DNA of 53,062 nucleotides from Desulfocapsa sp. (GTDB taxonomy: Bacteria > Desulfobacterota > Desulfobulbia > Desulfobulbales > Desulfocapsaceae). Shown one piece after another: positions 31,632 through 50,520 of the stretch (its first letter is position 1; every line of letters begins with the position of its first letter). The stretch is from the NCBI GenBank assembly GCA_013792135.1, contig VMSP01000112.1, positions 1 to 53,062 of the forward strand, in the 5' to 3' direction. The notes under the pieces were generated by a model that was given only the letters and a program-made list of their open reading frames with translations, made no database searches and was not told where the DNA came from. The position numbers and the translations under genes are program-made.

Positions 31632-31664
31632 TTTCAGTGAAGGGGAGAAAATTATTTTTCCTTG

Positions 31665-31696
31665 CTAATCATATCCTAACAATCCCGTGCTATAGT
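31665..31696 (+). promoter_or_regulatory. Pho-box promoter of phoR
   Basis: Two CTAA-type repeats, CTAATC (31665) and CTAACA (31676), are 11 bp apart. The second is followed by exactly ten bases and a TATAGT -10 hexamer (31691-31696). The same layout occurs before pstS and the porin gene. The repeats replace a -35 element, as PhoB-activated promoters do. Confidence 0.75.
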
Positions 31697-31742
31697 GCTG
31701 AAGTTTGTTGTTTTCTGACTTCAACCGAGAAAGGGGATTCCC

Positions 31743-33527
31743 ATGCATCACAAACGGCTTATCTGGCAGCTATATCCTAGTCAGCTTCTGATTACCCTCG
31801 CAGCTTTGCTGGCCTTTACTTGGTACGGCACATCTTCTATCCGTTCTTCTCAATTAAACGAGACTGCTGCCAGCCTTGAGGCCCGGGCCCATCTGGTGGC
31901 CGGCACTGTTCTTGGCTTTTTGGGACATGACGACAGGGCAGGTCTTGAAGACTTTTGTCGTCAGGCGGGGAAAGCATCGGCTACCAGGTTGACGGTGATT
32001 GCCCTTGACGGCAAGGTCCTTGCCGACTCGGACGAAGATCCGCTCCGGATGGAAAATCATAATGACCGTCCTGAGATTATCGGTGCCTTTGCGGGGAAGA
32101 TTGTTCCTTCCCTGCGTTTTAGTCAGACTTTACAGCAAAATCTCATGTATGTGGCCATCCCTCTCCATAATGAGGGGAAGAGGATAGGCGTGCTCCGCAC
32201 GGCTATCCCTGTGACCGCTATAGACCTAGCGCTTTCAGCAATTTATCAGAAAATTGTCTGGGGCTGTCTTGTCGTGGCAGTGATTGCGGCCCTTGTTGCC
32301 TGGTTTATCGCCCGCCGTATCAGCAAGCCGCTGGAGCAGATGAGATCTGGGGCTGAACGGTTTGCCCGGGGTGATTTTGCCGTGAGATTGCGGGAAGAAG
32401 GTGCGGAAGAGGTGGCAATTCTTGCCCGTGCCCTGAACGAAATGGCAACCCAGCTTGATATTCGCATCCAAACCATTGTCCGCCAGCACAGCCAATTACA
32501 GGCGGTTTTTTCCAGTATGGTTGAGGGTGTGATCACGGTGGATACCGAGGAGCGGATTCTTGATGTGAATCAGTCCGGCGCCCAACTGCTCAATGTCGAT
32601 CCTGAAAAAATTAAGGGAAAAAGTATCCTGCTGGCCGTACGCAATACCCATCTGCAGAATTTTGTTAAAAATTCACTGGCCTGTGCCTCTCCCATTGAAG
32701 GTGAATTCACCAGCCGGATGAGTGCGGATGGCCAGGAAAAATATTTTTATGCTCATGGCACTCGCTTGCAGGACCGCCAAGGCCATATTGCCGGCGCCCT
32801 TATCGTTCTCAATGATGTGACCAAGCTGCGGAGGCTGGAATCCATTCGCCGTGATTTTGTAGCCAATGTCTCCCATGAACTGAAAACGCCGATCACCTCC
32901 ATTGAGGGCTTTGCCGAAACCCTGCTTGATGGCGCTCTGGACGAGCCGGAAGATGCCCGTCGTTTTGTAGAAATTATCGGCAAACAGGCCTCACGCCTGC
33001 ACGCCATTGTTGAGGATCTGCTGGCCCTTTCCCGGGTTGAACAGGAGGCCAGACGGGAAGAAATTGTCCTGCAGGAGCTACCGGTGGCGGAGATACTGCA
33101 ATCGGCGATTCAGAGCTGCAGTTCCAGGGTGGAAGAGGAAGATATGACGATCAGTCTTGTCTGTGCGGAAGAGATCACTGCCAGAATCAATCCCGCTCTG
33201 CTGGAACAGGCCGTGGTCAATCTGCTGGATAACGCGGTTAAATACAGCGGCAAAGGCAGTGAGATCAGAGTTGAGGCCGAAAAGAATGCGAACGAAGTGT
33301 TAATCAGAATCAGTGACAACGGGGTTGGAATTGCCCCGCAGGATATCCCCCGGATCTTTGAACGTTTTTACCGTGTTGACAAAGCGCGCAGTGCCAAGCT
33401 GGGGGGGACTGGCTTAGGACTTTCCATTGTCAAACATATCGTTGCGGCCCATCATGGTCACATCACCGTGGAGAGCAGTCCGGGCAAGGGCAGCATCTTT
33501 ACCATTAATCTTCCGGGCAGCGTTTAA
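31743..33527 (+). CDS. phoR: Phosphate-regulon sensor histidine kinase PhoR
   Basis: Membrane histidine kinase of 594 residues. There is a first membrane helix (LLITLAALLAFTWYG) and an external region of about 130 residues. A second helix (GCLVVAVIAALVAWFIA) is followed by HAMP (RISKPLEQMRSG), a PAS domain (residues about 250-360), HisKA with phosphoacceptor His378 in NVSHELKTP, and HATPase with NLLDNAVKYS, DNGVGI and GTGLGLSIV. Similarity to PhoR, the CTAA-box promoter in front, and the absence of another kinase near phoB support assigning it to PhoB, which lies 16 kb away. In most bacteria phoB and phoR are neighbours. Confidence 0.9.
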   Translation: MHHKRLIWQLYPSQLLITLAALLAFTWYGTSSIRSSQLNETAASLEARAHLVAGTVLGFLGHDDRAGLEDFCRQAGKASATRLTVIALDGKVLADSDEDPLRMENHNDRPEIIGAFAGKIVPSLRFSQTLQQNLMYVAIPLHNEGKRIGVLRTAIPVTAIDLALSAIYQKIVWGCLVVAVIAALVAWFIARRISKPLEQMRSGAERFARGDFAVRLREEGAEEVAILARALNEMATQLDIRIQTIVRQHSQLQAVFSSMVEGVITVDTEERILDVNQSGAQLLNVDPEKIKGKSILLAVRNTHLQNFVKNSLACASPIEGEFTSRMSADGQEKYFYAHGTRLQDRQGHIAGALIVLNDVTKLRRLESIRRDFVANVSHELKTPITSIEGFAETLLDGALDEPEDARRFVEIIGKQASRLHAIVEDLLALSRVEQEARREEIVLQELPVAEILQSAIQSCSSRVEEEDMTISLVCAEEITARINPALLEQAVVNLLDNAVKYSGKGSEIRVEAEKNANEVLIRISDNGVGIAPQDIPRIFERFYRVDKARSAKLGGTGLGLSIVKHIVAAHHGHITVESSPGKGSIFTINLPGSV

Positions 33528-33647
33528 GGGGGATGTCGAGATGATATGGTGGATGCATGTTTGGCATCAGGGGCTGGGTCCGGAAGGGTGTCACTCACCA
33601 ATAAATGTCTGAGGGCTATTTTACTGAATGACGATGAGTGACTGGAT

Positions 33648-34862
33648 TTAGGGATAGGTAAGCGCTTTTGCAAATTCCACGGATTGCAGATAGAGTTCAT
33701 TGACATCTTTTATGCCAACACCAATTGCTTCTAAGGCTTGGACACATTCATTGGCTTCCCTTCTTTCATGAGTGATGACGGCATTTAGATAGGGCATCCA
33801 TGGGCCGCTTTGTTTGATCAGGGCTTGCTTTATCAGATCATCAATGGGCAGTTCTTTCAGCAGATCTTCTATCGGTGTATCCAGCATTGCATCTAGCAGG
33901 GAGAAAAGTCCCAGTAAAAATAAATTATTTTCTTTTCCGAACCTGCCGCTTGCCGTGGCCAGCAGCTCACAGAATTTTGCTCGCACAATGGCAAGGCGAA
34001 CCAGTTCTTGTGGTTTGTTGGTGGTCATCTCCGAGATAATCATCAGCATGAGAAAGCGTTTGAGCTCACGTTCGCCAAGAAAGGCGATGGCCTGGTTGAT
34101 AGATTTGACTTTTTCCAGTCGGTAAAACCAGGCAGAGTTGAGAAAGCGTAACAACTTGTAACTGATGGCTACATCGCGGGATATGATCTGGTCTAAGCGG
34201 GAAAAGGATGTGTCTTTTGCAGTAACTTCGGCCAGAAGATGCAAGAGGTTGATCTTGGCCGTCGTCAATTCCTTGATTGTGAGAATCTCCGGTTGGCTGA
34301 AGAAAAAGCCCTGAAAATAAGTAAATCCCAGTTTCAGGGCCTGCTCAAATTCCTGACGTGTTTCCACCTTTTCGGCCAGTAATTTTATCTTTTTATGACG
34401 GGAAAGGTTGTAGAGGGTTCTGCGGATGGTGTCGAGTGGTGTGGCTATGATGTCAATTTTGATAATATCAGCCAGTTCAATGAGCGGTTCGAGTGTTCGA
34501 GCATAGACAAAGTCATCCAGGGCAATAGTATACCCCTGTTGGGATAATTCTCGACAGACGCTTACAACCTCAGCACTTGGTTTCACATCTTCGAGTATCT
34601 CAATAACAATCTTACTACTGGGAAAAGACGCTGGAATATTCTTGAGCAGCAGTTTAGTGGTGAAGTTAATAAAGCATGGTTTAAATCCAGATATTCGATC
34701 AATGCCCTCAGTGAGAAAGGTGGCAGACAAGAGACTGGTGGTTGCCCGATCCCCCTCTAATTGATCGATATTATGTCCTTCTGTTCCGCGAAAAAGCAGT
34801 TCATAGGCAAAGAGCTTCTGGTTGGAATTAAAAATGGGTTGTCTGGCAATCAAAAAATCCAT
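33648..34862 (-). CDS. EAL-HDOD signalling protein (degenerate EAL)
   Basis: Cytoplasmic regulator of 404 residues in the YuxH-like family: an N-terminal EAL-fold domain and a C-terminal HDOD domain. The EAL signature is replaced by YELLFRG, and the later catalytic pieces are only partly kept (LDDFVYA, DIIKIDI, AEKVETR, YFQGFFF), so cyclic-di-GMP hydrolysis is unlikely. The HDOD half begins near LHLLAEVTAKDT with ISYKLLRFLNSAWF and AIAFLGERELKRFLML. Such proteins act as c-di-GMP-responsive or protein-binding regulators. It is convergent with phoR. Confidence 0.88.
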   Translation of the reverse strand: MDFLIARQPIFNSNQKLFAYELLFRGTEGHNIDQLEGDRATTSLLSATFLTEGIDRISGFKPCFINFTTKLLLKNIPASFPSSKIVIEILEDVKPSAEVVSVCRELSQQGYTIALDDFVYARTLEPLIELADIIKIDIIATPLDTIRRTLYNLSRHKKIKLLAEKVETRQEFEQALKLGFTYFQGFFFSQPEILTIKELTTAKINLLHLLAEVTAKDTSFSRLDQIISRDVAISYKLLRFLNSAWFYRLEKVKSINQAIAFLGERELKRFLMLMIISEMTTNKPQELVRLAIVRAKFCELLATASGRFGKENNLFLLGLFSLLDAMLDTPIEDLLKELPIDDLIKQALIKQSGPWMPYLNAVITHERREANECVQALEAIGVGIKDVNELYLQSVEFAKALTYP

Positions 34863-34922
34863 GGAGATTGTTAGATGGGAGCTGAAGAACAGGTTAAAGG
34901 AGTGCGCGTATCTTTACAACGC

Positions 34923-35822
34923 TCATTTGGCGAATGCCGCTTTAATTTTTTTGGCCATAACTTCCAGATTGGTGATCACATCTTCGGCCAGGGGGTCAAG
35001 GGGTATAACCTCACCGCCAATGGCATCGGCTATGGCTGCGGCGTTTTTGGGATCAAACTGGGGTTGGACGAAGATAACGTGTGCCTTGTTTGCTCTGGCC
35101 TGGGTAATCAGGGCAGAGAGCTGTCTCGGGGTTGGGGATTTACCGCCGGTTTCTATGGCTTCCTGTCGCAGGTGATAGGTATGGGCAAAGTAGCCAAAGG
35201 CCGGGTGAAAGACATAAAAGGACGCGCCTTGAAAAGAAGCCAGTTCGTCTTTGATCTTTTGATGCAGCTGGTCAAGAATCCCGTTTACCTTCAACAGATT
35301 TTTTTCATAACTGGATTTATTGGCAGGATCGTAGTTAATCATAGCCTTGGCCATATCTGCAGCCATGATTTTCAGGTTCAGGGGTGAGAGCCAGACATGG
35401 GGATCAAGGCCTTCATGGTGATGGTGCCCCTCGTTTGTGCTGCCATGATCGTTCTGCTCAGCTTCGGATATGGCAATCTTAGGAATGGCATCTGCCGTAT
35501 CAATCATGTGCAGGCCGGGGACTGTTTTTTCAAGTCGGGGAATGATCTGTCCTTCAAAATCAAGATCAAGGGTAAAATAGATCTTTGCCTGGCACAGGGC
35601 TGTCATCTGTTTCGGAGTGGGTTCATAGGTGTGAGGGTCCTGCCCTTTGTCAACCAGAACATGAGTGGTTACGAGCGGTCCTCCTATCTGGTCACTGAGC
35701 CATTTTTGTGGGGGGATGGAGACAAAGACATCCATGGGGGCAGAAAACGCCAGGGACGCGAGACAGAATAATGTGGAGAGGATGATTGATCCTGTAATAA
35801 ATTTTTTTTTCATCTGCTTCAT
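34923..35822 (-). CDS. znuA: Zinc-type metal ABC transporter substrate-binding protein
   Basis: Periplasmic cluster A-I binding protein of 299 residues with a signal peptide (KKKFITGSIILSTLFCLASLAFS). Metal-ligand histidines are in DPHTYEPTP, GLDPHVWLSP and FHPAFGYFA, with a late aspartate in QPQFDPKNA. A His-rich loop (NDHGSTNEGHHHHEG) precedes HVWLSP, typical of ZnuA rather than manganese proteins. No permease, ATPase or zinc-responsive Zur gene is next to it, so it is an orphan in this window. Confidence 0.9.
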   Translation of the reverse strand: MKQMKKKFITGSIILSTLFCLASLAFSAPMDVFVSIPPQKWLSDQIGGPLVTTHVLVDKGQDPHTYEPTPKQMTALCQAKIYFTLDLDFEGQIIPRLEKTVPGLHMIDTADAIPKIAISEAEQNDHGSTNEGHHHHEGLDPHVWLSPLNLKIMAADMAKAMINYDPANKSSYEKNLLKVNGILDQLHQKIKDELASFQGASFYVFHPAFGYFAHTYHLRQEAIETGGKSPTPRQLSALITQARANKAHVIFVQPQFDPKNAAAIADAIGGEVIPLDPLAEDVITNLEVMAKKIKAAFAK

Positions 35823-36048
35823 GTACCATGTTTTCTGTAAATTTGTATCAAACTTCGAAAGAGCAGGACAAAACCTATCCTTGTAGATTCCAAATAATCA
35901 CAACCATCCAAAAGGAAATATCAATAAACCTGCACGGGGGGGCAGGCACTCCATTTCATCATGCTATGGCAAGGTCATTGCGTGAGTGAACGGAAGCCGT
36001 GTGAGGAATGTTTCAGTGCTGTTTTTTATCAAATTCTCATGCCTGATG

Positions 36049-37479
36049 CTACTCGTTACCCTGCTGTTCTGTCTTGGGAAGCGGCAGAATAAAATAGAAG
36101 TTATTGCCCTCCTCTGTTGCCTCACAGCCGACTCTGCCGCCATGAACCTCAATAACTCGGCGGATAAAGTTCAGGCCATGACCGGAACCCTCAATCTCCT
36201 GGCTGCTTTTTGCCCGGGTGCCTTCTTCAAAGATTTTCTGTCGTTCAGATGCAGGCAAGGCTGGTCCGGTAGTAAAGACATTAAATTTGATTCCCCGGTG
36301 CCCGGAGTCAGGAAAATCATTAATCACTTCAGCACCATAAGCCAATGCTTTGCGTGGTTGTCCCTGGTGATTGATAATCTCTCCGGTGTAATTGACCGCA
36401 TTGGCAAAGAGGTTGGCGTAGACCTGGGAAAGGAGGCCAATGTCCACCATCAGCGGAAACTCCTGGGTGTGGAGGTTGCTGGGTTTATCAATGGTGATGC
36501 CATGCCGCTCAAGTTTTTTCAGATAGAGATCAAGCTGGGGCAGGATGATATCCCGCTCAACAAAACAGCTGGTCGGCTGGAGGACGAGATGGCCTTCGCT
36601 GAAATGTTGTTTCCTGAACAGGCTTTCCTGGAACAGGGTGATCTGGTTGTGATGTTTGAGTAGATCGCGGTGCGTTTGTTCCAGTGCTTGTCGCGTTTCC
36701 CGGCAGCCGTCAAGGAAGGTGACGTATTCCCTGGTGCTGGCATCGTTGACGTCCAGGGCTTCTGCGCTCTGTTCTGTCTCTTTGAGAGCCACTATCTGTT
36801 TCTTCATCTGCCCCAGCAGATATTTAAGGTACATGTTGGGGATAATGATATTATGACCGATATCTCTCCCCAGATCATTGATAAATTTCAGGTGCTCCAG
36901 GTGGCGCTTGGCAATGAGGCGGTTGTTGAGTTTGTTGCCGATCCAGCGGCTGAGAATGTGGAAAAATTCTTTGTCCTCGTCGCTGATCTTCGCCAGTGGC
37001 GAGACAGCATAGAGGCCCAGCAGCGAGTGGCTGGCAAAATAGGGATCCGGATCATATATCTCCTGACCTCCATGCCAAGCCTGGCCTTCCTGTTGTATGG
37101 TCTCGGTATGGGGGGAAAGAGGGTAAAAAAGCTGACCTTCATATTCCTGAACTTCATGGCTGACAGATGGCAGGTCGGAACTGGCAGGTCGAGGAGGTTC
37201 CAGTAGGCCGTTTTCACTGTCACAAACACAGAGGAACTGATCCGTTTTCTTCTCATAAAGATAGAAGCGGGCCTGTAATCCTCCTAACAACAGGGGCATG
37301 GTGACGCTGATCTGGAATAAGCGCTTGAGTGATTGATCATCGTGGACGATGTCGACAAAGGCCTTGAGCAGGGAATCCCTGTGAAAATCAAACCGGATCT
37401 GTTCATACAGTTGTATGGAACGCTGCAAGGCTTCTGAAAAGGGTCGTAGTGTCTCAGGTATCCGAACTTCCTGTTCCAT
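36049..37479 (-). CDS. GAF-like sensor histidine kinase with atypical motifs
   Basis: Soluble protein of 476 residues. Residues about 20-190 look like a GAF sensor domain (LLKAFVDIVHDD, RFYLYEKKTD). A helical region with INDLGRDIGHNIIIPNMYL follows and could be a phosphoacceptor H-box, where HN-x3-P replaces the usual HE-x2-TP. The C-terminal HATPase has NLFANAVNYT (N-box) and EGSGHGLNFIRRVIEVHGG (G2-box). The G1-box, usually DNGxGI, reads FTTGPALP and lacks the key aspartate. No response regulator is adjacent. It could be a kinase with altered nucleotide binding or a phosphatase-like regulator. It is upstream of the IS scar. Confidence 0.8.
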   Translation of the reverse strand: MEQEVRIPETLRPFSEALQRSIQLYEQIRFDFHRDSLLKAFVDIVHDDQSLKRLFQISVTMPLLLGGLQARFYLYEKKTDQFLCVCDSENGLLEPPRPASSDLPSVSHEVQEYEGQLFYPLSPHTETIQQEGQAWHGGQEIYDPDPYFASHSLLGLYAVSPLAKISDEDKEFFHILSRWIGNKLNNRLIAKRHLEHLKFINDLGRDIGHNIIIPNMYLKYLLGQMKKQIVALKETEQSAEALDVNDASTREYVTFLDGCRETRQALEQTHRDLLKHHNQITLFQESLFRKQHFSEGHLVLQPTSCFVERDIILPQLDLYLKKLERHGITIDKPSNLHTQEFPLMVDIGLLSQVYANLFANAVNYTGEIINHQGQPRKALAYGAEVINDFPDSGHRGIKFNVFTTGPALPASERQKIFEEGTRAKSSQEIEGSGHGLNFIRRVIEVHGGRVGCEATEEGNNFYFILPLPKTEQQGNE

Positions 37480-37745
37480 TAAAGGGGTTTCTGGTTAAAG
37501 GTGGACGGTGATGATATCATTAGCGGATGTTATTAATAATATAAGCCATTATAAAATGGATTACAATACGGTAGGTTGGGAGTCAACATCTTTCACCCTA
37601 TCTCAATGACATCCTCAGTTCAGGAGGTTCCAAAAGAAAGATCTGTCGAAAACAGACAGGTTGGCAAAGATAAGGTAGTCGGTCCTGAAAAAATACATAT
37701 AGCGCAGTAATTACAGGTAAAAGTTTGTGTTTTATTTTATAAGAA

Positions 37746-37784
37746 TTGCAAGAAACCCCGTGTTATAGATCAATTTTCTTGCAA
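37746..37784 (+). repeat. Hairpin TTGCAAGAAA/TTTCTTGCAA before the IS5-type transposase
   Basis: TTGCAAGAAA (37746-37755) and TTTCTTGCAA (37775-37784) form a 10-bp stem ten bases before the transposase ATG. It could be part of the left IS end or limit read-in from outside. The rest of the 37480-37793 gap shows no gene. Confidence 0.5.
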
Positions 37785-37793
37785 ATTTTGCCC

Positions 37794-38264
37794 ATGAAAC
37801 CAAAAAAATCACCACAACAAAATAGTCAATATGATCTGTTTCGATTAGAGCTTGTGAACATGATCAATACCAGTCATCCCCTGGTCAAGTTGTCGATGGT
37901 AGTAGACTGGAAGAGATTGGATGAAACTTTTGGAGCTTCTTTTTGTTCCGATAATGGTCGACCGGCAATCAGTACCCGCTTGATGGTTGCCCTGCATTAT
38001 CTCAAATATTCCTGCAATCTCAGTGATGAAGAGGTTGTGAGTGGCTGGGTAGAGAATCCCTATTGGCAATATCTGAGCGGGATGAAATTTTTCGAGCATC
38101 AACTACCGATTCACCCCTCCAGCATGACCAGATGGTGTAAGCGAATCGGTGAAGCAGGCGCGGAAGAATTATTGAAAGAGACCCTTGAGGCTGGTCTGCG
38201 CCTGAAAGCGGTCAAGACGAGTCAGCTCAAGCGGATCAATGTTGATACGACTGTTCAGGAATTC
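37794..38264 (+). pseudogene. N-terminal fragment of an IS5-family transposase
   Basis: From ATG 37794 the frame reads KPKKSPQQNSQYDLF, LSMVVDWKRLDETFG, GRPAISTRLMVALHYLKY, ENPYWQYLSG and ends at VDTTVQE. This is the N-terminal half of an IS5-type (DDE) transposase, including the first catalytic aspartate region INVDTTV. The match stops at the GAATTC at 38259-38264, and the remaining codons to TAG 38294 come from another element in antisense. About half of the protein, with the other catalytic residues, is missing, so it is inactive. Confidence 0.85.
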
Positions 38265-38363
38265 AATAAACGTAGGAACGGAACGAATTGGTAGTGCCTG
38301 TACAATGAATGTGATACATTCAGACAGAGTGCTGGGGATATTGCCGTATCCCTTGTTATCCAT
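38259..38363 (-). pseudogene. N-terminal fragment of a second transposase, opposite strand
   Basis: ATG 38363, behind a GGAGG site, starts MDNKGYGNIPSTLSECITFI and reaches RSVPTFIEF at the GAATTC junction. It resembles the N-terminus of a large DDE transposase family that continues FIELL-x-GAML. The frame then runs into the antisense of the IS5-type gene. Only 35 residues remain. I am less sure of the exact IS family than of the fact that it is a truncated transposase. Confidence 0.65.
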
Positions 38364-38405
38364 GGCGGCCTCCAGAAGATTAGGTGAAAATTTATCCTCT
38401 GGCAG

Positions 38406-38474
38406 GCCGTTTTCTCAGCCGAATTGAGGACTGTTTAGATTTACTGTTTGCCTCAATTCGGCTGAGAAAACGGC
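38406..38474 (+). repeat. 24-bp perfect inverted repeat near the truncated transposase
   Basis: Arms 38406-38429 (beginning GCCGTTTTCTCAGCC) and 38451-38474 (ending GGCTGAGAAAACGGC) are exact reverse complements around 21 bases. It lies 40 bases upstream of the minus-strand transposase start, so it may be the terminal region of that IS or two IS ends brought together. It could also fold into a strong hairpin. The following 200 bases to 38690 have no recognisable feature. Confidence 0.85.
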
Positions 38475-38690
38475 ACAATTTCTGACCACTATGGCAATAG
38501 TTTTTTAGCAAATTTTTTAATTTTTTAGACGTATGATTTCGGCCATACTGTTGGCTGAAACTCCAAACTCCAGATTTGTTAAAACTACACAGAAATTAAC
38601 TGTAACCACCAGGGAGTGTCAAAAATTTATATTGTTAAATCAATATGATGCGTTAGTCAACGTGCAACTTTTCATTGTCGTTGCATAACT

Positions 38691-40547
38691 CTAAACCCGA
38701 CAGGCTCCTAGAGATGGTAACTCTGCTTGCGCTGTCATTCTTCTATTGCTGACAATGGCTGATCCATGTAACTTTTTGGCAGCTTGTTTAACTCCCGTGG
38801 CAAGATATGCTAATTCTGCGTAGGAATTCACCGCACAATCTTCTGTGCTGACGATCCCAATCGATAATGAAAGGAGAGAAAAACAACGAACTTTTCCCTG
38901 TCGGTCCATGGCTTGGTAACATCCATTCTCAAATTCCTTTTCACCATGAAAATTTGGCAACAATTGTTGCAGCCTGTTAATAATCTGTTCACAGAGCGAT
39001 AAGGAGGCGTGCGGCCGACTGATGACTATAAAATCATCGCCGCCGATATGGCCGACAAAGCGGAATTGATCGTTATGGCCGTCCGGTTGCACCACATCCA
39101 CAATAAGCTGGGCAATTCCTTTGATGGCCATGTCACCTTTTTCAAAGCCGTAGTAGTCGTTGTAGGGCTTGAAATCATCGATGTCGATATAACAAACATC
39201 AAAGGTCACCCTTTGTTCGATAAGACGGACCACCGTGCGTTGGATAAATTCATTGCCGGGTAGACCAGTAAGTGGACTTGCCCCTTTAGCCAACTGGATG
39301 CTTTTTTGGGTAATGGCATCGAGCAAGGCCGCAATGGCGACTGTACCTATATATTTGCCATGTTTACTCACACAGAGATCATCATACAAAGAGACTCCGC
39401 GCCGTCCCTGGATCAGGCGAACAACCTCTTCCACCGGAGTTGAGGCCTCCACCAGCAGAAAATCTGGTTCCTGTACGTCCTTGATCATCCGGTGCTGGCA
39501 GAGGGCATAGCCAAAGCCGTGCGGTCCGATCAAATGTTGTTCCAGAAAACGCATGCGGGGCAACATGCCCATCACCCGCTCTTCTGCGACTACGGCTATT
39601 CCCTGCAGATTGGTGTTGTCATGAAAACGTTTGAATGCCGCCATCACCGAGGCTGTAGGCGCCAGGGGTTCCACATAGCGGCAGATACTGCCGATCACGC
39701 AGGAGGAGACTACTGAATCGGTGCACTCATAGACATCATTCTGCTTACCTGGGATATCGACACTGGCATCCGACAACCCTGGTCCTGGACGCTCAAGATA
39801 ATAGCCCTGAAACAGTTCAATGCCAAAACGGGAAACGATCTCCATCTCTTCCCGGCGCTCAATTCCCTCGGCAATAACCATGATACCAAGCTTATGGCAG
39901 ACTGTGGCCATGGCATCCACCAGATTATATTTAAAGGGAAAACGATCGAGCTCATCAATGAAATGGCGGTCAATCTTGACATAGTCAGGTTGAACAATGG
40001 AGAGCATCTTCAGTCCGCCGTAGCCAACGCCGAAATCGTCAATGGCAATCTTGTAGCCACGCTTGCGGTAATGATCAATGGACCGTTGGAACAGATCATA
40101 GTTCTTGATGGCCTCCTGCTCGGTGATCTCCAGGACAATCCTGTCTTTGGGAATACCGCAGTCCTCGGCCAGACGATCGGTAACCCCTCCCCTGTGGTCT
40201 GAGTGGATTAGAGTGCCGGGGCAGATGTTTACATAGAGATAGGCGTTTTTTTGTATGAATCCCAATTCTGCCGCCCGGCAAAAGGCATTTTCCCGGCATT
40301 GCATGTCCAGACTGGCAATAATGCCTTCAGCCTGGGCCTTGGCAAACAGTTTGGAGATATCAAAATGGGGAACACCGCCTTCCCGAACTCTGGTTAGGGC
40401 TTCATAACCGTATATCACACCGTTCTGCCGGGAAAATATTGGTTGAAACCAGGAGGTAAGGTTATTGGTATCCAGAAGATGGAGCAGCAACTCCCGCGAC
40501 ACCGTTGTCTGCACATTTTTTTCAAGAATAGATGATTCTAAGAACAT
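38691..40547 (-). CDS. EAL-CBS-GGDEF cyclic-di-GMP signalling protein
   Basis: Cytoplasmic protein of 618 residues. The EAL phosphodiesterase domain is intact: YGYEALTRV, VNICPG, LEITEQEA, DDFGVGYGG, VKIDRHF, AEGIE and FQGYYLERP. A central region of about 130 residues with LAPTASVMAAFKRFHDN and STPVEEVVRLIQGRRG looks like paired CBS domains. The C-terminal cyclase domain has GLPGNEFI and an IGGDDF signature, where aspartate replaces glutamate, a change compatible with activity. The start ATG 40547 has AAGAGG upstream; a longer frame from 40607 lacks a ribosome site. It probably balances synthesis and breakdown of c-di-GMP. Confidence 0.9.
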   Translation of the reverse strand: MFLESSILEKNVQTTVSRELLLHLLDTNNLTSWFQPIFSRQNGVIYGYEALTRVREGGVPHFDISKLFAKAQAEGIIASLDMQCRENAFCRAAELGFIQKNAYLYVNICPGTLIHSDHRGGVTDRLAEDCGIPKDRIVLEITEQEAIKNYDLFQRSIDHYRKRGYKIAIDDFGVGYGGLKMLSIVQPDYVKIDRHFIDELDRFPFKYNLVDAMATVCHKLGIMVIAEGIERREEMEIVSRFGIELFQGYYLERPGPGLSDASVDIPGKQNDVYECTDSVVSSCVIGSICRYVEPLAPTASVMAAFKRFHDNTNLQGIAVVAEERVMGMLPRMRFLEQHLIGPHGFGYALCQHRMIKDVQEPDFLLVEASTPVEEVVRLIQGRRGVSLYDDLCVSKHGKYIGTVAIAALLDAITQKSIQLAKGASPLTGLPGNEFIQRTVVRLIEQRVTFDVCYIDIDDFKPYNDYYGFEKGDMAIKGIAQLIVDVVQPDGHNDQFRFVGHIGGDDFIVISRPHASLSLCEQIINRLQQLLPNFHGEKEFENGCYQAMDRQGKVRCFSLLSLSIGIVSTEDCAVNSYAELAYLATGVKQAAKKLHGSAIVSNRRMTAQAELPSLGACRV

Positions 40548-40635
40548 CGTTTTATACCTCTTGCAATCTTCAAGATTACTCGAAAGAACAGGGGATAGAG
40601 ATCGCACAACAGAGAAGACAAGTGTATCCGTCCTG

Positions 40636-40863
40636 CTAACGACACTGAGCCAGAGCTATAATTTCCAACTCCGGGCTGAAATATTCATCATGCAGAGGCG
40701 GAAGAGACTGCACAAATGCAGGACAATGCTTATCTCTGCTGGCCTTACAGTACTTTTCCAGCTCCTGCACGCTTGGGATATAGGGTGTTCCCTTGAACGA
40801 ACAACTGGCTACAGACCAGGTATTGTCGGCAGGGGTATAACAAGAGAGATATTGACAGTGCAT
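40636..40863 (-). CDS. Small cysteine-rich protein
   Basis: ATG 40863 has GGAGG seven bases upstream and gives 75 residues. A longer frame extends to 41058 but its extra part is translated repeat. Cysteines are at MHCQYLSC, VASCSF, KYCKAS and KHCPAF, with TPYIPSVQELEKYC between. Small proteins with this spacing are known from Deltaproteobacteria without a function. The layout suggests a metal or iron-sulfur site. It is next to the EAL/CBS/GGDEF gene on the same strand and could be translated with it. Confidence 0.7.
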   Translation of the reverse strand: MHCQYLSCYTPADNTWSVASCSFKGTPYIPSVQELEKYCKASRDKHCPAFVQSLPPLHDEYFSPELEIIALAQCR

Positions 40864-40889
40864 ACTCTTTCCTCCATGAGTCGAATTGT

Positions 40890-41013
40890 AGGAGCCGTTA
40901 CGCAATAACCATTCCCTTTTTACAGGCCATGGATGGCCAAGTGATCTCCAGCTCCACGGATGGATGGCGAGTGTATGACCTGACATTTCGTAACGGCTCT
41001 TTATGCGGTTACG
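40890..41013 (+). repeat. Longest copy of the GGAGCCGTTACGAAAT repeat family
   Basis: It starts AGGAGCCGTTACGCAAT (40890-40906) and ends ATTTCGTAACGGCTCT, then TTATGCGGTTACG (to 41013), which is inverted relative to the start. Between them are GGCCATGGATGGCC and GGATGGATGGCG. It is the same organisation as at 8227-8317 with a longer interior. Confidence 0.75.
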
Positions 41014-41274
41014 TTGCTCCAATGTTTTCAGTTGTTTTGAACAATTGTGTGATTGCATGTTTATGAAAAAGAAATGTAGCAGTTCTGTATTAGAGTGAGA
41101 TTAGAAAGGAGTTATTTTTCAATCATGTGAACAGAAGGGACTTGAAATTTGAATAAAAACAAAGCAGTGCGGTCTCTTTAATCTTGGCGTAATAACAACT
41201 GGATTTTTTTTTGTTTCACTTGGAAGGAAAATAATCAGGTTTGTATATCGGGGCACGTACTTACAGTTTTGTGT

Positions 41275-41310
41275 GAGAGGGGTGAGAATTGAACTCATCT
41301 CACCCCTCTC
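41275..41310 (-). terminator. Terminator hairpin of the porin gene
   Basis: GAGAGGGGTGAGA and TCTCACCCCTCTC form a perfect 13-bp stem with a ten-base loop, 27 bases after the porin stop. No long T-run follows on the minus strand. The preceding 41014-41274 region has no gene. Confidence 0.75.
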
Positions 41311-41337
41311 GATATGTATCAGGAGAAGAAGTACTGA

Positions 41338-42675
41338 TTAAAACTTGTAGCTGACGTCGATCTGATAGATGCTGACCTGATCTTCCTTGGCCGATGCATA
41401 GTCTTCAAGGCGCTCGTAGTTGAGATAGGTAAAATCAGTGGACCAGTTTTTGCTGAGGCTATAGCCAAGCTGAACCCTGTGTCCTTTTTTATTTGTTTTG
41501 GAGAGACCATCGCCAAAATCAGAATCTGAGAGGTAACCGAAAAGGGAGTCGGCTTCGACTATGGAGTAGGCATAGCCCACTTTGAAGTCATTGATCTTGG
41601 CTTCTGTACCAAGAACCCAACCTAAGTCATTATCTCCAGGGGTCTGGGTAAAGCTGTGGCCGGCCTGGCTCTGGCCAATCAGACCATCAGCGCCAAAGTT
41701 CATCCAGGTCTGACCATAGAGTTTGACTTTTGCCGGTCCGGCAGGAAAGCTTATATCGCCATAGATATCACCGATATTCAGGTCATAGACGTTAGGATCT
41801 ATGCTATCAAGTTTAAAATCAGCAGCTGCAGCATCGTCAAAGAGTTTATTGTCATAGGCCTGATAGCCGGCAGCAACCGTGAATTTGCCTTTTTCGCCGA
41901 ACGTGCCATTGTATCCGGCCTGTCCCATATAGAGCATGGCCGTGTCATCGTCCTGTACCAGTTTGGCACCATAGGCGCCGCCCGTGGCAAAGACGCCTTC
42001 TTTCTGGCCATAGGCCAGGGTCATACCGGCAAGACGGACATCGCCATCCCAAAAAACCCAGGAGGATTTATAGGGATTTTCGGATTGACCCAGGGTCATG
42101 CTGAAATCATTCCATGTATGTTTTGCATAGGCATAATCAAGATTGATATTGCCGGTTTCAAAGGGCTTGTTCTCACTCCAGGTGTCATTGGTGCTGGTTG
42201 GATCATCACCACCGGTGGCAAGACCTGCGCCCACCTGCCAGTTTTCTTCCTTATTGTCCCAGACTCCTCCCAGACGAAAACGGGTACGAAAGCGCTCGCG
42301 GGTAATATCAGTCCCCTTGCCTTCCTTGTATTCCTTGTCGCGCATCTCATAGCGAACGCGCATATCACCCTTGAGTGTAATCTGGTCGATGAGCTTATTG
42401 TCGGCCATGACAAAGCCTTTTTTCGCTTCAATCGCATCAATATGTTCCTGCTGGGCAGTAACCTTGTTCTTCAGATATTCCATGTCTTCAGCAGGAGCGG
42501 TACTTTTCTGCTCTTTGAGCATATCGATCTCCGCCTGTTGGGATGAAACGATTGACCGTAAGTCCTGAAGTTCCCGTAAAATTTCATCATTGGTTTGGCT
42601 TCCGCCGGCCAGGGCGGCTCCGGGCAGATACAGGCAGAGGCCGAGGGCGGCTGCCGTTGATAATACCTTTTTCAT
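41338..42675 (-). CDS. Outer-membrane porin, probably phosphate-starvation induced
   Basis: Beta-barrel protein of 445 residues. A signal peptide (KKVLSTAAALGLCLYLPGAALA) is followed by a short coiled coil (ILRELQDLRSIVSSQQAEIDML). A barrel of alternating strands follows, from ITLKGDMRVRYEMRD onward, and ends in the aromatic DVSYKF needed for outer-membrane insertion. It fits the putative-porin group seen in Deltaproteobacteria. Four CTAA-type repeats with 11-bp period and a TATTGT -10 precede it, as before pstS, so it probably lets phosphate or phosphorylated compounds in. That substrate is inferred from promoter and position alone. Confidence 0.88.
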   Translation of the reverse strand: MKKVLSTAAALGLCLYLPGAALAGGSQTNDEILRELQDLRSIVSSQQAEIDMLKEQKSTAPAEDMEYLKNKVTAQQEHIDAIEAKKGFVMADNKLIDQITLKGDMRVRYEMRDKEYKEGKGTDITRERFRTRFRLGGVWDNKEENWQVGAGLATGGDDPTSTNDTWSENKPFETGNINLDYAYAKHTWNDFSMTLGQSENPYKSSWVFWDGDVRLAGMTLAYGQKEGVFATGGAYGAKLVQDDDTAMLYMGQAGYNGTFGEKGKFTVAAGYQAYDNKLFDDAAAADFKLDSIDPNVYDLNIGDIYGDISFPAGPAKVKLYGQTWMNFGADGLIGQSQAGHSFTQTPGDNDLGWVLGTEAKINDFKVGYAYSIVEADSLFGYLSDSDFGDGLSKTNKKGHRVQLGYSLSKNWSTDFTYLNYERLEDYASAKEDQVSIYQIDVSYKF

Positions 42676-42804
42676 TTTCTCTCCTTCCTTCGTAAAATTG
42701 TGTGTTTACTTCATTAATTTTCATCACTTACCATCTTTACCCCCGTCGGGCGTTCTGTAACGAACTTGATATCCATTCATTTTTTGACGATGAATGATGC
42801 CGTG

Positions 42805-42858
42805 ACAATAGCGGAGCAGTTTTAGGATAGGGTTATCGTTATGTTAGAAAATCGTTAA
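42805..42858 (-). promoter_or_regulatory. Pho-box promoter of the porin gene
   Basis: On the minus strand TTAAC, CTAAC, ATAAC and CTAAA begin exactly 11 bp apart (plus-strand positions 42854, 42843, 42832, 42821). The last, within CCTAAA, is followed by ten bases and TATTGT (42810-42805). It is back to back with the pstS promoter, separated by 65 bases. The gap 42676-43042 holds only these two promoters. Confidence 0.8.
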
Positions 42859-42923
42859 TTGTTGGTTCGAGTGATCATCTTGAAAATTGAGACTGAAAAT
42901 ATCCACTGAAACCTTGTTCATCT

Positions 42924-42967
42924 CCTAATGAGATCCTAATCATATCCTAACAAGAGGGGGGCATTGT
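42924..42967 (+). promoter_or_regulatory. Pho-box promoter of pstS
   Basis: CCTAAT, CCTAAT and CCTAAC begin at 42924, 42935 and 42946, exactly 11 bp apart. Ten bases after the third is CATTGT (42962-42967) as a -10. PhoB binds tandem direct repeats of 11-bp period, so this is the expected place and form, with a repeat unit different from the E. coli TGTCA. Confidence 0.85.
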
Positions 42968-43042
42968 AGGCAGCATCACTTACCGGTGAATTATCTGTCC
43001 CGCGGGTATAAGCCATAAAAATTTTTGTTAAGGAGATTCATG

Positions 43043-44038
43043 ATGAAAATGCATAAAAGTTTGATCGGAAAGGCAGTGAAGAAGGCAATGGTGGTAAGCT
43101 GTCTGGTGGCAGTAACTACTTCCGGTGCTTTGGCCGCAGTCGATGTTGACCCCAAAATTGCCCCGTACCAGAAGACCAGTGGTGTGTCCGGTAATGTGGA
43201 CAGTATCGGTTCTGATACCTTGAACAATCTGATGACCTTCTGGGCGGAGTCATTTCGCAAGGAGTATCCCAATGTTCGTATCCAGATCGAAGGCAAAGGC
43301 TCAAGCACTGCGCCGCCGGCTCTGATCGCCGGAACCGCTCAGTTAGGCCCCATGTCCCGGACCATGAAGAACGAGGAAGAAGATGCTTTTGTCAGCAAGT
43401 ATGGCTACAAACCAACCCGTATTGGTGTGGCCCTGGACTCTCTGGCTGTTTTTGTCAACAAGGACAACCCTCTCAAGTCTCTCTCCCTGCCCCAGGTTGA
43501 TGCCATTTTCTCCAAGACCCATAAGGGTGGAATCGCACAGGATTATGTGACCTGGGGACAGTTGGGCCTGACCGGTGAATGGGAGAATTTGCCTCTCAGT
43601 CTGTTTGGTCGTAACTCTGCTTCCGGCACCTATGGTTTCTTTAAGGAACATGCCCTGTCCAAAGGTGACTATAAGGATACCGTCAAAGAACAGCCAGGTT
43701 CCGCTTCTGTGGTTATGGGCGTGACTGAGAATCGTTCTGGTATCGGCTATTCCGGTATTGGCTATAAAACCTCCGGAGTGAAGGCAATCGCCTTGAGCGC
43801 CAAAGAGGGTGAAGCTGCTGCCGAGCCGAATTATGAGAATGTTCTGTCCGGAAAGTATCCCCTGTCACGGACCCTGTATATCTATGTTGGCAAGGAGCCC
43901 AATAAGCCTTTACCGGCAGTGACTGCTGAATTTCTCAAGTTTGTCCTCTCCAAAGAGGGTCAGGAGATTGTGGTGAAAGATGGATATCTGCCGCTGCCCT
44001 CTGAAGTTGTTGAAAAAGAGCTGGCGAAACTCAATTAA
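43043..44038 (+). CDS. pstS: Phosphate-binding protein PstS
   Basis: Periplasmic phosphate receptor of 331 residues. The signal peptide includes [19 protein letters not shown]. Phosphate-binding segments are [28 protein letters not shown] and [14 protein letters not shown]. The start ATG 43043 lies seven bases after AAGGAG; ATG 43040 and 43049 are also in frame. It is the first gene of the pst operon, and a hairpin after it may make pstS message more abundant than the permease genes. Confidence 0.97.
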
Positions 44039-44156: not shown

Positions 44157-46385
44157 ATGCAGAAACTTGATACACAGTTCATTCAAAAAGTCCGTCTTCA
44201 GGATCGTATTGCCACCCGGATCATTACCTTTGGTGGCCTGTTGGTTATAGCCAGTGTTATTGCCATTCTGGTCCTGATCGTCCGCGTGACTATCCCTCTC
44301 TTTCAGCCAGCCAGGACCAATATTATCTTTCAGTTTCCTCTCTCTTCCGGGTCTGAATCCCTGCTGGCTATGGGAGTTGATAATTACCAGGAGACAGCTT
44401 TTACCTTGAATGACAGGGGTGTTTTTACCTTTTACAACCTGGCCAAGGGGGCATCATTTTTGAGTTTGGAGAGTGGTGCCGACAAGAACGTTCCTCTGAA
44501 ATCTATCGAGTTACATAAGAATAACCAGTACAGCATGCTATGGGCCGATAACAGTGTCAGCATGACCGAGGTTGCTTTCCGCTTTCACTTTGATAAGGAT
44601 GGAAAACGTACCATCAAGCCTGAGATCAAGACCATTGCTGAATTTCCTGCTGAGACGGGAGCCATTGAAATCCTGCGTGTAGCTGTCCGCAAGACAGAAG
44701 ATGGCCGGCTTACCAAAGTAGTACTTCTCGACGACAACAGTTTTCGGGTAGCGCGTGAAGTGATGAGCACCGACCTTTTTGGCAATGAAAAAAAAGAGGT
44801 TGTCTCTTTCCCTGTGCACGAAGATATTCCCGGAAAAATTACGGATTTTACCCTTGATGAAAAGGGAGATACCCTTTTTGTGGGCACGGACTCAGGGAGT
44901 CTCTTGCGTTGGGATGTAAGCGGCAACAAGGAGGGACTGCGCACAGATAATGTGCTGGCTGTTCCCAATGGAGATGCCATTACGGCCTTGACCATGGTCT
45001 TTGGTGATATCTCGGTGGCAGTTGGTGACGCCAAGGGTGGGCTTGCAACCTGGAGCCCTATCTGGACCGGGGATGGAGATCAAAGGATAACCAAACTTCG
45101 GAAAATCCATGAACTTACTGCGCACAAGGCCGCTGTTTCAACTATTGTGGCCTCACGCCGTACCAAAGCCTTAGTCAGTTTCGGAGCTGACGGCAAGGTC
45201 CATTATGATCATATGACCAGTGAAAACCACCTGCTTGATATTGAGCATAATTTGACCAATTTTGCCCTTGCCGGGAGTGATAGCAGCCTGATCGGTCTTG
45301 ACCGGAGCAACAATCTAATTGTCTGGAATATTGACAATCCACATCCTGAAGTGAGTTTGAAGACCCTTTTTGGCAAGGTGTGGTACGAAAGCTACAATCA
45401 ACCGGAGTATGTGTGGCAATCGTCTGGCGGCAGTGATGATTTTGAGTCGAAATTCAGCATTATTCCCCTTTTATTCGGAACGATTAAAGGCACGCTCTAT
45501 GCCATGATCTTTGCGATCCCGCTTTCCATCTTTGGCGCTGTTTATACCAGTCAGTTTACCAGCTATGGCTTTAAAAAGAATATCAAACCCCTGATTGAGA
45601 TCATGGCCTCAGTGCCATCGGTGGTCATTGGTTTTCTCATCGCTTTATGGCTGGGTCCCATTATTGAAAAATTCATCGTCGAGGTTCTCCTCTTCAGTAT
45701 GCTGTTGCCGCTTGTTCTGGTTATCATGATGACGATTATGCAGCCCTATTACAAAACCCCTACCCTGCAGAACAGGTGTAACGGCTATGAATTTCTGCTG
45801 CTGGTGCCGGTCATCTTGTCCACAGTGGGTTTTTCGGTATGGCTGGCCCCGGGAGTGGAAAAAGCGTTTTTCAGCGGTAATTTTCTGCAATGGCTCTACA
45901 GCGATCTGGGCGTTCGTTATGATCAGCGTAATAGTATTATTATTGCCTTTGGTCTTGGCATTGCCGTCATTCCCATTATTTTTTCCATTACCGAAGATGC
46001 CATCTCCAATATTCCGTCCAGTTTGACTGGTGCCTCCCTGGCCCTTGGTGCCAGCCGCTGGCAGACCATCTGGCGAGTGGTGCTCCCCTCTGCCAGTCCC
46101 GGAATCTTTGCGGCCATCATGATCGGTTTCGGCCGGGCCGTGGGAGAGACCATGATTGTCCTTATGGCAACCGGCAATACCCCTATTATGGACTGGTCGA
46201 TCTTTAACGGCATGCGAACCTTATCGGCCAATATTGCGGTGGAAATTCCGGAAGCACCTTTGAATGGAACCTTGTATCGGGTGCTTTTTCTTTGCGCCAC
46301 TCTTCTTTTTGCCCTGACCTTTATTTTAAATACCGGGGCAGAACTGATCAGAGAGCGGCTGCGGAAAAAATATGGCCGCTACTAA
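44157..46385 (+). CDS. pstC: Phosphate ABC transporter permease PstC, with large N-terminal domain
   Basis: Inner-membrane permease of 742 residues, over twice the classic PstC length. A first membrane helix (IITFGGLLVIASVIAILVLI) is followed by about 380 residues outside the membrane. Repeats such as FTLNDRGVFTFYNL, TLFVGTDSGSLLRWD and SFGADGKVHYD look like a beta-propeller. The usual permease domain starts near residue 430 with IIPLLFGTIKGTLYAMIFAI, and its EAA-type loop is LTGASLALGASRWQT. Extended PstC proteins are known in some gamma- and deltaproteobacteria. The extra domain probably contacts PstS or PhoR, which is not shown. Confidence 0.95.
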   Translation: MQKLDTQFIQKVRLQDRIATRIITFGGLLVIASVIAILVLIVRVTIPLFQPARTNIIFQFPLSSGSESLLAMGVDNYQETAFTLNDRGVFTFYNLAKGASFLSLESGADKNVPLKSIELHKNNQYSMLWADNSVSMTEVAFRFHFDKDGKRTIKPEIKTIAEFPAETGAIEILRVAVRKTEDGRLTKVVLLDDNSFRVAREVMSTDLFGNEKKEVVSFPVHEDIPGKITDFTLDEKGDTLFVGTDSGSLLRWDVSGNKEGLRTDNVLAVPNGDAITALTMVFGDISVAVGDAKGGLATWSPIWTGDGDQRITKLRKIHELTAHKAAVSTIVASRRTKALVSFGADGKVHYDHMTSENHLLDIEHNLTNFALAGSDSSLIGLDRSNNLIVWNIDNPHPEVSLKTLFGKVWYESYNQPEYVWQSSGGSDDFESKFSIIPLLFGTIKGTLYAMIFAIPLSIFGAVYTSQFTSYGFKKNIKPLIEIMASVPSVVIGFLIALWLGPIIEKFIVEVLLFSMLLPLVLVIMMTIMQPYYKTPTLQNRCNGYEFLLLVPVILSTVGFSVWLAPGVEKAFFSGNFLQWLYSDLGVRYDQRNSIIIAFGLGIAVIPIIFSITEDAISNIPSSLTGASLALGASRWQTIWRVVLPSASPGIFAAIMIGFGRAVGETMIVLMATGNTPIMDWSIFNGMRTLSANIAVEIPEAPLNGTLYRVLFLCATLLFALTFILNTGAELIRERLRKKYGRY

Positions 46386-46396
46386 CAGGAGCAATC

Positions 46397-49818: not shown

Positions 49819-50520
49819 GTGGTAAGAGAAACTATCCTAATTGTAGAAGATGACGAAAATATCCAGCAGCTGGTTGGCTATAACCTCGCTAAAGCTGGAT
49901 TTAATGTCCTCTACGCCGATAATGGCGAGCAGGCTCTGGCGAGCGTAAAACGTGAGCTGCCGGACCTGATGGTGCTGGATATCATGCTGCCCAGCCTCAA
50001 TGGTTTTGAGGTGTGCAAGATTCTGCGCAAGGACCCGCAGACCAGAACCATGCCCATTATCATGCTGACTGCCAAGAGTGAGGAAAATGATGTGACCGCC
50101 GGTCTGGATCTGGGTGCAGATGATTATATCACCAAGCCGTTCAGCCCCAAGATCCTTGTTTCCCGAATCAAATCGATCTTGCGCAGGCGGGAGGAATTGT
50201 CCGGTGAAGACGGAAGGGAAGCAAAAGATGGACTGCTCAAGGTCCATGATATTGTCATTGATCCGAAACGGTACGAAGTAGTGGTGGCGGGCAGCCCTGT
50301 CTCTCTGACGGTTACTGAGTTCAGCATCCTTGATCTTCTGGCGCGGCGTCCAGGCTGGGTCTTCAGCCGCCAGCAGATTATTGACGGAGTGCGAGGCTAT
50401 GACTATGTCATTACTCCACGGGCCGTGGACGTTCAGGTCTTCGGCCTTAGAAAGAAGCTGGGGGCCTCCGGAGAATGTATTGAGACCGTGCGCGGGATCG
50501 GCTACCGGATGAAGGGATGA
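49819..50520 (+). CDS. phoB: Phosphate-regulon response regulator PhoB
   Basis: DNA-binding response regulator of 233 residues. The receiver has the acidic pair in VEDDEN, phosphoacceptor Asp54 in MVLDIMLP, and the lysine in GADDYITKPF. The C-terminal OmpR-type winged helix has LTVTEFSILDLLARRPGWVF and ends VRGIGYRMKG. The start is GTG 49819 behind AAGGAG. It most likely binds the CTAA boxes before pstS, phoR and the porin gene. There is no kinase gene next to it; phoR is about 16 kb upstream. Confidence 0.95.
   Translation: MVRETILIVEDDENIQQLVGYNLAKAGFNVLYADNGEQALASVKRELPDLMVLDIMLPSLNGFEVCKILRKDPQTRTMPIIMLTAKSEENDVTAGLDLGADDYITKPFSPKILVSRIKSILRRREELSGEDGREAKDGLLKVHDIVIDPKRYEVVVAGSPVSLTVTEFSILDLLARRPGWVFSRQQIIDGVRGYDYVITPRAVDVQVFGLRKKLGASGECIETVRGIGYRMKG

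Follow-up and report, generated by a model that had tools for sequence, protein, structure and literature searches.

How can the promoters of a phosphate-starvation regulon be recognized when they lack the word that the regulator PhoB reads in E. coli? This question is raised by a stretch of 53,062 nucleotides (nt) from Desulfocapsa sp. (GenBank assembly GCA_013792135.1, contig VMSP01000112.1, positions 1 to 53,062 of the forward strand; hereafter the window), which carries the phosphate transport and regulatory genes pst, phoU, phoB and phoR. The TGTCAY core of the E. coli-type Pho box is absent from the four candidate promoters of this stretch. They consist instead of CTAA-type or TTAA/ATAA units with a tandem period of 11 base pairs (bp), and the last unit lies 10 nt upstream of the -10 element, replacing the -35 element. 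The four were read in the sequence as follows:

31664..31696, + strand: predicted Pho promoter of phoR; GCTAAT 31664-31669, CCTAAC 31675-31680, N10, TATAGT 31691-31696.
42913..42967, + strand: predicted Pho promoter of pstS; CCTAAT 42924, CCTAAT 42935, CCTAAC 42946-42951, N10, CATTGT 42962-42967.
42805..42859, - strand: predicted Pho promoter of a porin gene; ATTAAC, TCTAAC, GATAAC, CCTAAA (42859 down to 42821), N10, TATTGT 42810-42805.
41073..41116, - strand: fourth predicted Pho promoter, before the genes of a 75-amino acid Cys-rich protein and an EAL-CBS-GGDEF protein; AATAAC, TCTAAT, TCTAAT, N10, TACATT.

The -10 hexamers were read by eye, and the 10-nt distance therefore describes geometry only. 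A preliminary description of this DNA had reported CTAA-type repeats 11 bp apart before phoR, pstS and the porin gene, in two, three and four copies, each array ending 10 nt before TATAGT, CATTGT or TATTGT. Spacing, copy numbers and hexamers are all present in the sequence; at the porin gene the copy number of four is right, while two of the units are TTAA and ATAA rather than CTAA. The fourth promoter, which is of the same build, had been missed. At pstS an extra degenerate unit further upstream is conserved, reading CTTGTT in the window and CCTGTT in most relatives, and the porin array comprises five units in several relatives. Between the pstS box and CATTGT (42952-42961, + strand), the spacer is a G-run, AAGAGGGGGG; most members of the genus, and another family as well, have a G-rich spacer there.

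We consider it highly probable, judging from sequence, that these are PhoB-dependent phosphate-starvation promoters with a YCTAAY unit and a matching change in the PhoB recognition helix. The spelling of the unit and the matched change in the regulator are new, and the architecture is ordinary and already known. The phoA, pstS and phoB promoters of E. coli, as we read them, contain TGTCAC, TGTCAC and TGTCAT, followed after 10 nt by TATAGT, TATTTT and CATAAT, with an 11-bp step between units; a distance of 10 bp between site and -10 element is also reported for E. coli (PMC1906773; this and all other papers are cited from excerpts). Because the three E. coli promoters share step and gap, the geometry in the window is that of an ordinary Pho promoter, and this fixes the register in which TGTCAY corresponds to YCTAAY, the second base changing from G to C and the fourth from C to A. 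The earlier suggestion that fixed geometry defines a lineage-specific Pho box thus holds for the spelling and not for the geometry. The word lineage-specific is also too narrow, as the box spans Desulfobulbales, Desulfuromonadales and a few metagenome-assembled genomes (MAGs) labelled Nitrospinaceae, Nitrospina and Gemmatimonadetes.

The geometry recurs widely when the pstS protein is used as the sole bait, the best 80 of 135 relatives, from many phyla, being taken as loci. Pairs of CTAA in the 80 upstream regions are 11 bp apart in 20 cases and 22 bp apart in 11, and every other lag between 5 and 24 occurs at most twice. Three-copy repeats of any spelling likewise favour lag 11, which received 29.6 votes over 78 regions, compared with 9.6 for the runner-up. 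In 29 of 38 regions, the array is separated from a downstream -10-like hexamer by exactly 10 nt, and each other offset from 0 to 21 is found in at most 4; this count excludes six genomes that had come from the search with the CTAA pattern, and the -10 element was not used in choosing the arrays. In the new test genomes described below, the hexamer stands at 10 nt in 10 of 12. At least two [GC]TNAY units are present in 46 of 52 pstS regions versus 6.7% of shuffled regions, and at least three in 25 of 52 versus 0.1%.

The promoters are also conserved within the genus. For the pstS locus, the closest relatives with a name are MAGs, among them several titled Desulfobulbaceae or Desulfocapsaceae, and PstS identity reaches 98%. 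Visual inspection showed the pstS array in 14 of 15 same-genus loci, and an exact match showed it in the fifteenth (G073); a close pstS was not found in G079, the sixteenth genome. An array with a -10 element at N10 precedes phoR in 13 of 16 upstream regions of the genus, the window included, and the porin gene in 17 of 24 loci examined with a looser unit rule, where three of the seven loci lacking the box also lack the porin N-terminus. At least three units followed by TA...T at N10 were found before the 75-amino acid gene in all 15 rows listed, two of which are pieces of one gene and one of which is the window. For phoR, porin and the 75-amino acid gene, the -10 element helped to choose the array, so that these counts lean towards our reading. 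One genome (L078) holds three copies of the 75-amino acid gene, each with its own box; pstS and this gene are divergently oriented in two other families of the order.

The preliminary description had proposed a scan for enrichment next to phosphate genes, and the outcome is in its favour. Among 257 genomes of the order, the exact pattern has 46 matches in 39 genomes, which were classed by hand according to the genes downstream. Pst or pstS-type genes, phoR, a phoB operon (G246) or a phosphonate-type ABC transporter (G006) follow in 37 cases; three matches are unexplained or lie within genes (G069, G169, G174). The remaining six precede a PepSY or PepSY-DUF347 locus and were set apart as a second class rather than taken as Pho members. 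In several genera (L109, L110, L112, L120, L264, L265), CTAA-N7-CTAA-N11-TAT[AT]GT stands before PepSY and DUF347 genes, whose families were tested for L109 and L110 and assigned by eye for the rest. The PepSY/DUF347 matches suggest that another OmpR-family regulon uses an almost identical box. Within the window, CTAA-N7-CTAA-N11-YATWGT has six matches with up to two mismatches versus 0.46 expected, and none of 100 shuffles reaches six; four of them are the described promoters and two (33631, 38488) are not. With up to one mismatch, the whole 4.2-Mb genome yields three matches, all of them described promoters.

The regulator PhoB is encoded here by:

49819..50517, + strand: phoB; best NCBIfam family PhoB TIGR02154, 236.4 bits; recognition helix ITPRAVDVQVFGLRKKL at 50410-50460.

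The recognition helix reads ITPRAVDVQVFGLRKK in the window versus VEDRTVDVHIRRLRKA in E. coli, with Gln at the position of E. coli His198 and Gly at that of Arg201. In the PhoB-DNA crystal structure, Arg201 bonds the guanine, and Thr194 and Val197 touch the thymines (PMC3973317). Among the matches listed from the PDB for PhoB, at E values up to 1e-30, no PhoB-DNA entry appeared, and these contacts were therefore taken from that paper. The comparison of residue 201 and the unit's second base covered 52 genomes having both a pstS region and a PhoB match, of which 46 were counted after dropping the six found by the CTAA pattern. Sixteen genomes of the phylum were simply the best PstS matches, picked without looking at the boxes. 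Of 68 loci outside the window's genus, 21 were picked for PhoB look-up, nearly all for a visible lag-11 array of any spelling and with their PhoB not known at selection. Gly, Ser or Ala at 201 goes with C in 29 genomes, Arg with G in 10 and Asn with G in one, and six genomes have no array. Hence, all 29 C boxes are paired with Gly, Ala or Ser, and 10 of the 11 G boxes with Arg; when the window's genus is counted once, the 29 genomes become 22.

A prediction was then written beforehand for 26 new genomes found by PstS only. The 24 with Arg201 comprise 13 with G only, one mixed case (G585) and 10 without an array before pstS, and none has C; G-only boxes were thus found in 13 of the 14 that have an array. 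Both new Ala201 genomes have no array directly before pstS. In a step outside the noted plan, the region before the preceding gene, which often looks porin-like to the eye, was examined in nine of the 12 array-less genomes, and seven of the nine gave an array. The Arg201 genomes showed G in five cases and no array in two (of seven), and the Ala201 genomes showed C in both. G566, G571 and G581 were left unscored; by eye, G571 and G581 read CGTAAC, TGTAGC, N10, TATAGT.

Phosphorylated PhoB would bind the 11-bp units head to tail, covering the -35 region, and would recruit sigma-70 polymerase to the -10 element 10 nt downstream. The unit of this lineage would be YCTAAY, replacing TGTCAY of E. coli, and the PhoB helix would have changed alongside, with Gly, Ala or Ser at the Arg201 position and nearly always Gln at that of His198. 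The predicted regulon of the window would include phoR, pstSCAB-phoU-phoB, the porin gene, and the 75-amino acid protein together with the EAL-GGDEF protein. The sequences show how the promoters are built, that they are conserved and stand before phosphate genes, and that box and PhoB residue correlate; we infer that PhoB binds and activates these promoters and that its change at residue 201 may have brought about the new spelling. On a larger scale, and with the balance of probability evenly poised, the regulator would have lost its guanine-reading arginine once, deep in bacterial history, the promoters would have kept their architecture and swapped G for C regulon-wide, and the pair would then have spread across Desulfobulbales and Desulfuromonadales and into members of other phyla. 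One genome at the base of the non-Arg clade (G302; L272, L294) has a PhoB with His198 and Pro201 and a T-type array, TTTAAC CTTTAT CTTCAT CTTAAC, before pstS. With its P201 and CTTAA-type repeats, it may be an intermediate.

Several observations weigh against this reading. The PhoBs without Arg201 form one clade in 41 of 42 rows, with support of 100/99. In G270, Asn at 201 occurs with a G box; the best regulator of that genome has only 38% identity and is a doubtful PhoB. Arg201 does not force G, since G277, with R201 in a 39% identical regulator, has a CTTAA-type array, and cyanobacterial SphR, said to have the same contact residues as PhoB, nevertheless binds CTTAACCT (PMC1906773). The array is missing in six of the 46 genomes of the first comparison and, directly before pstS, in 10 of 24 R201 and both A201 test genomes. 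The window PhoB scores below the curated cut-off of TIGR02154 (296.2 bits), though this is its top-scoring family. Finally, the reversed pattern has 25 matches in the same 257 genomes versus 46 forward, seven versus three in the 4.2-Mb genome (up to one mismatch), and 499 versus 94 when three units are required. Genome-wide counts alone were therefore rejected as evidence, and it is position and conservation, not number, that carry the case.

The most serious competing explanation, which we regard as quite possible though somewhat less probable than its opposite, accepts the Pho boxes as real and attributes their link with residue 201 to shared ancestry only: a single PhoB clade would have drifted, and other residues or DNA shape would set the preference. 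Because the non-R201 rows are a single clade save one doubtful row, the agreements between residue and box amount to about one event. The CTTAA-type arrays found with R201 in G277 and reported for SphR point the same way, and residues 198 and 200, and mostly 194, covary with 201, the His198 position being nearly always Gln in the non-Arg201 lineage. However, the same phylum holds R201 and non-R201 PhoBs, and the box follows the PhoB type. Moreover, the change falls on the residue for which a bond to guanine is reported, and PmrA, which has Asn at the place of 201, binds CTTAAT and CCTAAG, likewise with no G there (PMC3973317).

It is improbable that another OmpR-family regulator of the PmrA/QseB kind, rather than PhoB, binds the CTAA repeats. 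The PmrA half-sites are five bp apart (PMC3973317), and the six exact matches at PepSY loci imply that a similar box probably serves another regulator. Most matches nevertheless precede pst or pho genes; the box is found at the operon whose last gene is phoB, and the spelling tracks the PhoB type. An origin by chance or from low-complexity AT-rich repeats, which short units and high raw counts of the reversed pattern might suggest, is practically negligible, as it is already refuted by conservation across the genus and beyond; the comparison with shuffled regions also speaks against it.

The remaining genes behind the four PhoB-dependent candidate promoters are:

31743..33527, + strand: phoR/pnpS-type sensor kinase; NCBIfam PnpS 406.9 bits (cut-off 400), phoR_proteo 311.5 bits (under the cut-off of 334.2).
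43025..44038, + strand: pstS, phosphate-binding protein, first gene of pstSCAB-phoU-phoB; NCBIfam ptsS_2 256.1 bits (cut-off 206.6).
41338..42675, - strand: porin, divergent from pstS; Pfam Porin_5, 72.2 bits (cut-off 22).
40639..40863, - strand: 75-amino acid Cys-rich small protein; the EAL gene is next on the same strand.
38691..40607, - strand: EAL-CBS-GGDEF protein; Pfam EAL, CBS, GGDEF.

Both partners of a Pho regulon, PhoB (49819-50517) and PhoR (31743-33527), are thus encoded in the genome. From 43025 onwards the gene order is pstS-pstC-pstA-pstB-phoU, with phoB (49819) last; if this is one operon, the pstS box would also drive phoB, because phoB ends it, which implies autoregulation. 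PstC (742 amino acids) and PstA (570 amino acids), encoded at 44157-48004 (+ strand), are far longer than usual; their best permease-family stretches lie in the C-terminal parts and leave long N-terminal regions over. The EAL-CBS-GGDEF gene is probably co-transcribed with the 75-amino acid gene, as judged from strand and spacing. For the 75-amino acid protein (40639-40863, - strand), no Pfam match was found at E 0.01; its conserved Cys residues follow the pattern MHCxxLxxY...TWSVASC...PYxPS...C...CPA. An open reading frame at 37746-38294 (+ strand) resembles, by eye, a truncated IS5/IS1182-type transposase, and a long inverted repeat is located near 38400-38480.

Further arrays lie outside the window. 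In its own genome, three-unit CTAA-type arrays are found beside two paralogs of polyphosphate kinase 2 (PPK2; L035:1277-1302, C173; L040:1501-1526, C87), and the C173 array also adjoins a CHAD-domain gene. Both arrays lack a -10 element at N10 and point away from PPK2, and as putative Pho sites they are suggestive. A G-type array (TGTAAC, TGTCAT) precedes an ACR3-type permease-like gene, assigned by eye, near pst genes in L371 (G598; open reading frame from 188).

The predicted consensus would provide a Pho box for anaerobic sulfur and metal bacteria, a large group for which no published consensus was found among the matches listed from open-licence papers. It has long been asked how a global transcription factor can move to a new binding site while its regulon stays intact; the present system would be a clean natural case, in which the change comes down to one or two bases and a few residues of the helix. 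In addition, the predicted phosphate regulon gains a small Cys-rich protein and a cyclic di-GMP enzyme. Neither a CTAA-type Pho box from this group nor a link between box spelling and Arg201 was found among the matches listed from open-licence PMC papers; the terms 'pho box' and 'motif' do not occur in PMC5193443, and the excerpts of PMC4117788 hold nothing on Arg201. Pho-box consensus sequences are reported to vary by species with the contacts of the regulator (PMC4415409).

The E. coli Pho box resembles the box described here in its 11-bp direct repeats, the position of the last unit 10 nt before the -10 element, the kind of genes controlled and the PhoB-PhoR pair, and differs in the unit, TGTCAY instead of YCTAAY, and in the helix given above. 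The Bacillus PhoP box, TTAACA, shares an A-rich unit and the 11-bp period, and its spelling differs from that in the window. The PhoB box of Desulfovibrio vulgaris, likewise a sulfate reducer, reads (c/t)GT(n)AC (PMC3333781); it fits the same register, but its second base stays G. Among the genes that this PhoB targets are pst, phoU and HD/EAL phosphodiesterase genes (PMC3333781). The cyanobacterial SphR box also consists of direct repeats (8 bp plus a 3-bp linker) with an A-rich unit, whereas its second base is T instead of C, and the contact residues of E. coli PhoB are said to be retained in SphR (PMC1906773). The PmrA box has nearly the same half-site, five-bp spacing, a similar period and a regulator that has Asn instead of Arg at 201 (PMC3973317); in contrast to the box of the window, which stands before phosphate genes, it serves another regulator and other genes.

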